Shown: positions 12,505 to 52,165 of the stretch, one piece after another | Numbering within the stretch: position 1 is the stretch's first letter | Layout: each line of letters starts with the position of its first letter | Assembly (NCBI GenBank): GCA_019637675.1 | Contig: JAHBVE010000002.1 | Span: 333,797-397,796, forward strand | Reading direction: 5' to 3' | Origin: Anaerolineales bacterium | GTDB lineage: Bacteria; Chloroflexota; Anaerolineae; Anaerolineales; UBA11579 | DNA length: 64,000 nucleotides | The notes under the pieces: model-generated | Told to the model about the DNA's origin: nothing | Seen by the model: the letters and a program-made list of their open reading frames with translations, nothing else | The model's database searches: none | Translations under genes and position numbers: made by a program

Positions 12505-12632
12505 GAGTCAATTGTAATGGGCGAAGGTGATGGGGATGTGAAAGCGGTCTGTTAGTTCAGACAAGTGAGATCCCGATATAGAGCCTTAACGGATTCCTCG
12601 CTACGCTCGGAATGACAGACTTTTATGCACGC

Positions 12633-14827: not shown

Positions 14828-15658
14828 ATGACAGACATTGCCAACACACAAGTTTCCCCAGCCGCCTGGCTGCGGCCGATGAACTCGATTTCGTTCTTCA
14901 TCCGCAAGACGCTCAACATCGCCGAGATGGAGATGCGCAAGCTGCGCCACGAGCCACTGGACCTGCTGACCCGGGCGGCCCAGCCGGTGCTGTGGATCCT
15001 GATCTTCGGCCAGGTGCTGGCCGGGGCGCGGGCCATCCCCACCGGCGAGTTTGGCTACATCGAGTTCATGTCGCCGGGCATTCTGGCGCAGAGCATGCTG
15101 TTCATCTCGATCTTCTATGGCATTTCGATCATTTGGGAACGCGACCTGGGCATCATCCATAAGTTCCTGGCTGGCCCGGCACCGCGGGCTTCGCTGGTGC
15201 TCGGCAAGGGGCTCTCGGCCGGCGTGCGCGGCATCTCGCAAACCTTCATCATCTACCCGCTGGCCTACTTCATGGGCGTCAAGCTGGATTTCAACATTTT
15301 GGCGCTACTGGGCACGTTGTTGACGGTGTTGCTGGGGGCGGTGCTGTTCTCTACGTTCTCGCTGCTGGTGGCGATCAAGGTGAAGACACGCGAGCGCTTT
15401 ATGGGCATTGGCCAGTTCATGACCATGCCGCTGTTCTTTGCCAGCAACGCGATCTATCCGATCGAGATGATGCCGGGCTGGCTGCAGGCGATCTCGCGCT
15501 TCAACCCGCTGACCTATGTGGTGGATGCGCTGCGCACGTTCATGCTGGCAGGCGGCGAGAGCCACTTTGGCCTGGGCACGGACTTTGCGGTGCTGATCCT
15601 GGTGTCGGCGCTGTTCGTGTGGTGGGCCGGCCGGGCGTACCCAAGTTTTGTGAATTAA
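14828..15658 (+). CDS. ABC-2 type permease, DrrB-like
   Basis: 276 residues with six hydrophobic helices and the ABC-2 family segment NPLTYVVDALRTFML near the C-terminus. It starts nine bases after the ATPase, with an AGGA-containing ribosome site. It is predicted to form the membrane channel of the exporter with the ATPase at 14021. Confidence 0.9.
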   Translation: MTDIANTQVSPAAWLRPMNSISFFIRKTLNIAEMEMRKLRHEPLDLLTRAAQPVLWILIFGQVLAGARAIPTGEFGYIEFMSPGILAQSMLFISIFYGISIIWERDLGIIHKFLAGPAPRASLVLGKGLSAGVRGISQTFIIYPLAYFMGVKLDFNILALLGTLLTVLLGAVLFSTFSLLVAIKVKTRERFMGIGQFMTMPLFFASNAIYPIEMMPGWLQAISRFNPLTYVVDALRTFMLAGGESHFGLGTDFAVLILVSALFVWWAGRAYPSFVN

Positions 15659-15711
15659 GGGGCGTTCGCCTGTTTCGTTGAACAGATTTGTTGAGCTGAA
15701 AACCAACCCAC

Positions 15712-15812
15712 AACGGATTCCTCACACTCGCTTCGCTCGGTTCGGGATGACAAAAACAAAGCCATTTTGTCATTCCGACGAGGCCGTCAGGCCGAGGAGG
15801 AATCCGTTATGG
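15712..15812. repeat. Palindromic repeat pair B-A, left of the GIY-YIG gene
   Basis: Unit B (15713-15753) starts ACGGATTCCTCACACTCGC and ends GGGATGACAA. Unit A (15775-15812) starts CCGACGAGGCCG and ends GAGGAATCCGTTATGGG. The outer words CGGATTCCTC and GAGGAATCCG and the inner words GATGACAAAA and TTTTGTCATTC are inverted, so B-A folds as one long hairpin. Near-identical A and B units follow the gene in mirrored order. Confidence 0.8.
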
Positions 15813-15843
15813 GCTTGTGTAAAAGTCTGCTATTCTGTGGCAA

Positions 15844-16143
15844 ATGGGGAAGCACAAGTACTTTGTTTACATCCTTGGGAGTAAGACGGGAACGGTATAC
15901 ACAGGTGTTACCAATGACCTCGAACGACGGATGTTCGAGCACAAGCATGGGCTCTTAGACGGCTTCACAAAGAGCTACCGCGTCAATATGCTGCTTTTCT
16001 ATGAAGAGCATGACTATATTGAAGATGCCATCCGGCGAGAGAAAGAAATCAAAGCCTGGCGACGCGAGAAGAAGGACAAGCTGATTGCTTCGGTCAACCC
16101 GCACTTAGAGGACTTGGCCTCGGATTGGTTTGCCTCAGATTAG
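15844..16143 (+). CDS. GIY-YIG family nuclease (COG2827/URI-like)
   Basis: 99 residues. The core is YFVYILGSKTGTVYTGVTND, in which YIL and VYTGVT replace GIY and YIG as is usual in this small subfamily, followed by LERRMFEHKHG with the catalytic Arg, and EDAIRREKEIKAWRREKK with the metal-binding Glu. It is predicted to be a small single-domain endonuclease. TATTCT (15831-15836) is seven bases before the ATG. Near-identical palindromic units bracket the gene, which suggests a mobile cassette. Confidence 0.88.
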   Translation: MGKHKYFVYILGSKTGTVYTGVTNDLERRMFEHKHGLLDGFTKSYRVNMLLFYEEHDYIEDAIRREKEIKAWRREKKDKLIASVNPHLEDLASDWFASD

Positions 16144-16167
16144 GTTTTTAGGTAAACACATCCCTTG

Positions 16168-16317
16168 ACGGATTCCGAACGAGGCCGCCAGGCCGAGGAG
16201 GAATCCGTTATGAGTCTGTATGGCTCAAGGCCAATCTGCTTTACGACAGATACGGCTGTTTATAAACCCACTGCATACGGATTCCTCACACTCGCTTCGC
16301 TCGGTTCGGAATGACAA
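16168..16317. repeat. Palindromic repeat pair A-B, right of the GIY-YIG gene
   Basis: Unit A (16175-16214) differs from the left copy at about three positions. Unit B (16277-16317) differs from the left copy at one of 41 positions. A and B are in the same strand orientation as on the left but in opposite order, giving B-A-gene-A-B. Confidence 0.8.
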
Positions 16318-16327
16318 GCAAAAAACA

Positions 16328-16373: not shown

Positions 16374-17306
16374 CTACTTGGCCGGATTGCCGTCGTCAGC
16401 GCCCATCTCGTTGCCAACGTAGATGGCGTTGCGCATCTGGTCGGTCAGGTCGCCTACGGCGTTGGGGCTGTAAGGGATCAGCACGACCTTGCTGCCGGCG
16501 TGAGCGCCGATGTCCTTGAGCATGTCAAAGTGCTGGGTCACCATCAGCAGGTCCATCACGGTCTGCGGCGAGACGCTGGGGATCTCCTTCTGGAAGTCGC
16601 CGACGGCGCTGCTGAGACCCTGAGCGATCTCCTTGCGCTGGTTGGCGATACCCACACCCTGCAGACGCTTGCTCTCGGCTTCACCCTCGGCGGCTTTCAC
16701 GGTGAGAATGTACTCGGCCTCCGCCTTCTGGGCGGCAGCCAGGCGCAGGCGCTCCTGGGTGTTGATCTCGTTCATGGCCTGCTTGACCTTGGGATCCGGG
16801 TCAATGTCAGTGATGAGGGTCTGGCGGATGTTGTAGCCGAAATCATCCATGGCGTCAGACAGCTCAGTGCGCACGGCGGTGGCAATGTCTTCCTTGTTCT
16901 CAAAGACTTCGTCGAGCGTCATCTTGGGGACGTTGGCGCGCACCACATCGAATACGAAGGAACGGATCTGGGTGTGCGGATCCTGCAGGCGATAGAAGGC
17001 GTCGAAGACCTTATCCTCGCGGATCAGGTACTGGACGGAGACGGTCATCTTGACGAAGACGTTGTCCTTGGTCTTGGTCTCGATGTCGACATCCAGCTGC
17101 TGCAGGCGCAAATTGACCCGGCCAGCGATCTGCTCGATCAGAGGGATCTTGAAGTTGAGGCCCGGGCGATAGATGCGGGCAAACTTACCGAAGCGCTGCA
17201 CAATGACGGCGGTTTGCTGCTGCACCGTAAAAATAGTGCCGGGGATGAGGATCAGCAATACGACGAGCCAGAATACGTATGTGCCGATCGACGATAAGAA
17301 GTTCAT
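16374..17306 (-). CDS. SPFH/Band 7 (stomatin-like) membrane protein
   Basis: 310 residues. One N-terminal membrane helix (about 7-28) precedes the SPFH domain (QQQTAVIVQRFGKFARIYRPGL onward), then a long Glu/Ala-rich coiled region (RLAAAQKAEAEYILTVKAAEGEAESKRLQGVG). Such proteins oligomerise into membrane microdomain scaffolds and modulate membrane proteases. There is no NfeD-like or FtsH partner next door, so the partner is unknown. GGAGG lies six bases before the ATG. Confidence 0.92.
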   Translation of the reverse strand: MNFLSSIGTYVFWLVVLLILIPGTIFTVQQQTAVIVQRFGKFARIYRPGLNFKIPLIEQIAGRVNLRLQQLDVDIETKTKDNVFVKMTVSVQYLIREDKVFDAFYRLQDPHTQIRSFVFDVVRANVPKMTLDEVFENKEDIATAVRTELSDAMDDFGYNIRQTLITDIDPDPKVKQAMNEINTQERLRLAAAQKAEAEYILTVKAAEGEAESKRLQGVGIANQRKEIAQGLSSAVGDFQKEIPSVSPQTVMDLLMVTQHFDMLKDIGAHAGSKVVLIPYSPNAVGDLTDQMRNAIYVGNEMGADDGNPAK

Positions 17307-30704: not shown

Positions 30705-30810
30705 GTCATTGCGAGGAGTAGTCGCTGCGCAGCAGCGGCAACGGACGAAGCAATCTGGGTTTAAGCACTACTAACACCAAGACAGATTGCTTCGCTGCGC
30801 TCGCAATGAC
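30705..30810. repeat. GTCATTGCGAG...CTCGCAATGAC inverted-repeat element
   Basis: Outer arms GTCATTGCGAG and CTCGCAATGAC, inner arms CGAAGCAATCTG and CAGATTGCTTCG. A related half (GGGATTGCTTCG...CTCGCAATGAC) is at 52104-52165. Non-autonomous, MITE-like intergenic repeat. Confidence 0.7.
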
Positions 30811-51938: not shown

Positions 51939-52165
51939 TGTCATTCCGAGCGGGTTTATCAGCCTACACCAGACCGCCGAACCCGCTTCAGCGAGGAATC
52001 CGTATTGGCATTTCTTCCGAATTCACTCAGACGGATTGAGACACAAACCGTCCCACAACGGATCCCTCCTCGGCCTTTGGCCTCGTTCGGGATGACAAGC
52101 TTGGGGATTGCTTCGTCGGCTGAAAGTTGCATGAACATGCAACTTTCAGCATTCCTCGCAATGAC
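51939..52165. repeat. Cluster of dispersed palindromic repeats
   Basis: Three elements fill the gap: TGTCATTCCGAGCGGG...GCGAGGAATCCGTA (51940-52005), ACGGATCCCTC...GGGATGACAA (52053-52097) and GATTGCTTCG...CTCGCAATGAC (52106-52165). The last encloses a perfect 15-bp hairpin, GCTGAAAGTTGCATG / CATGCAACTTTCAGC (52119-52150). No gene is seen here. Confidence 0.65.

Follow-up and report, generated by a model that had tools for sequence, protein, structure and literature searches.

Introduction

REPs are among the commonest repeats of bacterial genomes. Those bearing a GTAG tag belong to REPtrons, in which a small enzyme gene (RAYT or TnpA-REP) is flanked by REPs that are also dispersed over the genome, the types of enzyme and REP are matched and the repeats form dimers; the enzyme is an HUH tyrosine transposase (PMC2817692, PMC8266576). 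The CGTC superfamily, which includes dRS3 of Neisseria and RPE-4 and RPE-6 of Rickettsia, is marked by an unpaired terminal tag (CGTC, TGTC or CCTC, on one side of the unit), a stem of 8–9 bp starting from AT and a loop of 4–5; its dimers are mostly opposed, and four families have been named (PMC3733652). Of the two REP superfamilies, it is the one whose enzyme was missing as of 2013, when Di Nocera et al. described CGTC-tagged REPs as apparently lacking a dedicated transposase (PMC3733652). A role in DNA repair has separately been conjectured for the small GIY-YIG nucleases of COG2827 (PMC1839093).

Here we analyse a locus of an Anaerolineales bacterium in which a small GIY-YIG gene stands among CGTC-type REPs. 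From comparison of sequences we propose, with a probability of about 0.7, that CGTC-type REPs have this Slx1-like nuclease as their cognate enzyme and that it drives their spread.

Results

The window locus

The window, which is the whole stretch of 64,000 nucleotides analysed, belongs to a genome of 2.25 Mb in three contigs. Between an ABC-permease gene that ends at 15658 and an SPFH-type gene (named from its sequence) on the minus strand at 16374–17306, a gene for a 99-aa UPF0213/Slx1-like GIY-YIG nuclease occupies 15844–16143 of the plus strand, in agreement with the first-pass annotation. REPs stand on both sides of it. Unit B1 (15713–15753, minus strand) carries its TGTC tag at the right end, and A1 (15767–15808, plus strand) carries it at the left end, outward from the gene. 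Downstream, A2 (16170–16210, plus strand) has lost the tag, with GACGGATTCC where TGTC would stand, and B2 (16277–16317, minus strand) has its tag at the right end, again outward. The B pair lies exactly where it had been annotated and is identical at 40 of 41 positions; the A pair was also real, with coordinates now placed at about those given here and a 41-nt core that is 90% identical.

The locus had been described as a mirrored bracket, B-A-gene-A-B. This order holds and the mirroring is confined to it: by strand the locus reads B minus, A plus, gene, A plus, B minus, so that each pair is a direct repeat. Nor are A and B two unrelated units. Both are versions of a single unit, TGTCATYCCGA...GAGGAATCCG (TGTC-AT...AT-CC), in opposite orientation. 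A1 and B2 provide inverted termini, TTGTCATTCCGA at 15767–15778 and its complement at 16306–16317, which match at 12/12 positions. By likeness to a duplicated cassette described below, we infer that the element extends from the A1 tag to the B2 tag (15767–16317, plus strand). The B pattern matches the window twice, where shuffled sequence gives an expectation of 0.00, and a strict 37-nt pattern matched the window copy alone. As single-stranded DNA, the B1-A1 segment (15706–15815) folds at –34 kcal/mol (z –8.6).

Like CGTC-tagged REPs (PMC3733652), the window units combine a TGTC/CGTC tag, an AT-initial stem and a CC tail, and they are mostly intergenic, present in many copies and arranged as opposed dimers. 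The unpaired tag of the superfamily is retained as TGTC in A1, B1 and B2. In the window units the outer stem is short and leads into a long, imperfect hairpin, unlike the classic stem of 8–9 bp with a loop of 4–5 that is seen in the cassettes of N. gonorrhoeae and Azospirillum lipoferum; the window units are therefore filed as CGTC-like, outside the four named families. To call the element unnamed, as was first done, is partly wrong: its repeats fall within or beside the CGTC-tagged REPs, which received their name in 2013 (PMC3733652).

Units of this kind are dispersed through the genome. The general pattern gave 70 matches in the window genome and none with a reversed control, and 400 kb of it held 49 canonical units compared with 1–9 for scrambled tags. 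Opposed dimers predominate (37/41 close pairs in two 400-kb stretches), the plus-then-minus arrangement being the commonest with 25. In the window itself, an ATTGC-type dimer (plus then minus, 30705–30810) and a cluster of three CGTC-type units (51940–52165) both stand without a GIY-YIG gene, and a single ATTCC-type unit is found on the minus strand at 12592–12616.

The nuclease

GIY-YIG is the only Pfam profile that the window protein matches (1.9e-14); the HUH (Y1) transposase domain that marks REPtrons was not detected in it by Pfam. Tyr9, Tyr19, Arg29, His33 and Glu66 are invariant across 36 homologues and supply the characteristic Tyr, Arg and Glu residues, and the motif EIKAWRR comes after the conserved Glu66. 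The predicted structure, which is confident (pLDDT 91.5), best matches the UPF0213 fold (1zg2), followed by Slx1, a branched-DNA cutter. Fold, length and catalytic residues are shared with the UPF0213/prokaryotic Slx1-like proteins (COG2827; PDB 1zg2 and 1ywl; YhbQ and YazA). The locus differs from YhbQ/YazA-like members in its adjoining REPs: no units were observed in the flanks of E. coli yhbQ and two yazA-like genes. Relatives contain up to six such GIY-YIG genes each.

Cassette ends and presence or absence

The best evidence on the ends of the element is a single case, locus L108, in which the gene occurs twice, the copies being 95% identical and separated by 357 bp. The two cassettes are homologous from the tag of the left-hand unit up to that of the right-hand unit. 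Inverted termini bounding a wholly duplicated unit, as in an insertion sequence, are clear in this one case. Across 80 pairs of nearest flanking units, the tags point outward in 53 (37/57 and 16/23) compared with an expectation of 25%, and the same five-base stem occurs on both sides in 59 (40/57 and 19/23).

The first-pass annotation asked whether orthologous sites exist with and without the cassette, and three such sites were found. In the close relative G008, 35 bp of unrelated sequence replace window positions 15658–16327; the flanks are 93–96% identical in DNA and the permease is 100% identical in protein. At the same site just one unit, of the A type, is present in G005 and in G007, whereas G001 carries several dimers and a reversed gene that is 75% identical. 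A second cassette, with ATTGC units (C1:173624–174035), corresponds to 51 bp in G008. Finally, the interval from sufB to sufC in A. lipoferum 4B holds the gene and three perfect CGTC units; in five other Azospirillum records both the gene and the units are missing from that place.

Units also vary on their own. Within 400 kb of G000, 25 of 49 units fall in alignment gaps, which make up about 4.4% of the bases. At C1:402755–402852 of G000 there is a gene-free ATTGC dimer, and the matching place in G008 has no unit. This dimer and that at window 30705–30810 are consistent with non-autonomous copies. A clean target duplication was not found in the strain-level junctions read against G008, where the junctions were not clean.

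These data bear on two other explanations. The nuclease might instead trim or resolve REP hairpins, in the way that SbcCD treats long palindromes, with the flanking units merely regulating its mRNA and with no spreading. The nearest fold relatives of the window protein include the branched-DNA nuclease Slx1, the annotation of E. coli YhbQ describes a nuclease of the DNA damage response, and the units are close to the gene (median distance 30–40 bp), all of which would suit such a role. However, the gene comes and goes together with its units at orthologous sites and has been duplicated from tag to tag, whereas a housekeeping gene would be expected to stay put, and we regard this explanation as unlikely. 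The second is that of a homing endonuclease, in which gene conversion would carry a copy of the gene to a fixed, empty target, the units being just the ends of the gene. GIY-YIG enzymes do include homing nucleases (PMC1564403), and orthologous sites occur both with the gene and without it. We consider homing improbable, because the insertion sites are many and unrelated (12 loci of the genus share no common neighbourhood) rather than one fixed target, the 99-aa protein lacks a DNA-binding extension, and gene-free units differ between strains too.

Association across phyla

Homologues were sampled as the 80 best loci from many phyla, with one genome per species, and units were detected as GTC followed by a stem with AT or AC at its start, then the complement of that stem and then either C or T. 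A unit was found within 300 bp of the gene in 65/75 homologues and on both sides in 50/75; as the loci were best hits rather than a random sample, these rates are valid solely for the subfamily nearest to the window protein. By reading, the flanks of relatives' genes show tagged palindromes with several stem types. The detector is conservative: units are visible by eye at L077–L080, L085, L086, L101, L102, L115 and L339, all of which it missed, the units of missed genes having a changed tag or a stem mismatch. It likewise missed the units of S. meliloti (CCTC tag) and of N. aromaticivorans (GC-initial stem). Species already known for CGTC REPs have the gene: in N. gonorrhoeae it lies inside dRS3 repeats, with nine dRS3-type units in the 500 bp around it, and A. 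lipoferum has it too. As in REPtrons, the REP type beside the gene is also dispersed in the same genome.

It might be argued that these genes and REPs are functionally unconnected and simply gather wherever intergenic DNA is permissive. Units are indeed frequent in other places (one pattern finds about 70 per genome) and occur in 29/220 other intergenic stretches, but 97/123 stretches adjoining the gene contain one (p 1e-34). With nine scrambled tags, only 3–10 of the same 75 genes had a unit and 0–1 had units on both sides. The association also fades with distance, to 6/50 at 1 kb and 1/43 at 2 kb, none of them two-sided. It is nearly absent from uvrC genes, which encode the same domain (1/30). 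In 14 genomes, units stand beside 2/10 GIY-YIG paralogues less than 46% identical to the window protein, versus 13/15 of the others. Together with the outward bias of the tags and the matching of protein motif to unit across phyla (see below), these controls make mere co-residence scarcely believable. That another enzyme acting in trans, a RAYT or IS200-type transposase, moves the REPs and the cassette is barely credible: Y1 domains occur in many relatives, but the only Y1 match of the window genome lies in a 475-aa frame, no CGTC unit stands near any of 24 Y1 transposase genes, and Di Nocera et al. likewise found no such association (PMC3733652).

The first-pass annotation was prepared to abandon its idea if most repeats lay apart from GIY-YIG genes. 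Taken literally this is the case, since most dispersed units are far from one, but REPs relate in the same way to their RAYT gene and the idea is thus not refuted. Outside the genus, the number of units per genome follows the number of genes weakly (rho 0.25, p 0.09). In some repeat-rich genomes no small GIY-YIG gene was found; G041, for example, an assembly that is 90% complete, has 333 unit matches, and the only GIY-YIG gene found in it is of the uvrC type.

Protein motif and repeat type

The class of unit follows the protein. On a tree of 112 genes it changes 22 times compared with 52 when shuffled, and the nearest homologue from another phylum has the same class in 64/92 cases compared with 33.6 (maximum 51) for shuffles. 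Whole-cassette transfer between phyla could account for part of this matching. Unit class tracks a few residues directly after the conserved Glu66. IKAGSR is paired with GC stems (12/12), and perfect CGTC palindromes accompany xWxRxWK (10/11). The units are mostly of the CT class for IKGW (51/65) and mostly of the CC class for IK[AS]W (13/16), to which the window protein, with IKAW and CC stems, conforms. Genes added afterwards fit the rule within single genomes: one Syntrophomonas genome combines L348 (IKAGSR, GC) with L338 (IKGW, CT), and one Sedimentisphaerales genome combines L340 (WHRKWK, perfect palindrome) with L350 (IKSW, CC). L339 (IKAGSR), passed over by the detector, has GC-type units on both sides; L335, with CC units and IKGW, is an exception. 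Known IKAGSR carriers have a median of 37.5 ATTGC units per genome compared with 2 in the other genomes (p 0.0005), a comparison in which the list of non-carriers is incomplete.

In a sub-group of genes (L085, L086, L093 and kin) the tag of the units is altered (GTGTCCC, GTGCATCCC), so the enzyme and its tag may evolve in step.

Discussion

Relatives of the nuclease in many phyla stand beside matching repeats, and it is therefore probably the enzyme that spreads them. The comparative evidence supports well, short of proof, the suggestion of the first-pass annotation that the nuclease may mobilise the repeats as a REP-type element. On the best reading, the nuclease works like RAYT, to which it is unrelated: a GIY-YIG nuclease would here take the place of the HUH transposase, and TGTC/CGTC that of the GTAG tag.

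In this model, the small GIY-YIG protein would recognise the hairpin or cruciform of a unit whose stem matches it and would cut the extruded unit at or near the TGTC tag. The Slx1-like predicted fold and the strong single-strand folding of B1-A1 make structure-specific cutting near the tag the most likely activity. Cutting would cause REP units and dimers to spread in trans; the nuclease's own gene would spread as well when it lies between two outward-tagged units. We know of no GIY-YIG enzyme that joins strands, so a new copy would probably arise through recombination or replication-fork repair, and we do not claim a transposase reaction.

A broader proposal, for and against which we see about equal odds, is that these are tiny mobile elements found throughout bacteria, about 0.4–0.55 kb when autonomous, whose sole enzyme, a GIY-YIG nuclease, reads REP stems by means of the short motif beside its catalytic Glu, with CGTC REPs, dRS3 and RPE-4/6 as non-autonomous copies. 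The tie between such units and a nuclease gene is absent from the account of CGTC-tagged REPs (PMC3733652), and no report of a GIY-YIG gene–REP link was found in the open-access literature, preprints aside; it appears to be undescribed. If the proposed link is true, the missing enzyme of CGTC REPs (PMC3733652) and the role of COG2827 (PMC1839093) share one answer, an altered protein motif should alter the repeat recognised, and short DNA repeats have a new enzymatic route of spread.

Some observations stand apart from this argument. On plasmid p1 of Planktothrix agardhii, a REP-flanked GIY-YIG gene (L218) lies between an MmeI-type restriction gene and the DISARM gene drmA. Another short palindrome, roughly GGGCGCAGCATGCTGCGCCCTA, recurs intergenically in the genus of the window organism (for example near position 257973 of G000 C1), and a similar stretch is present in G008 between the permease and SPFH genes (L127), at the place of the missing cassette.
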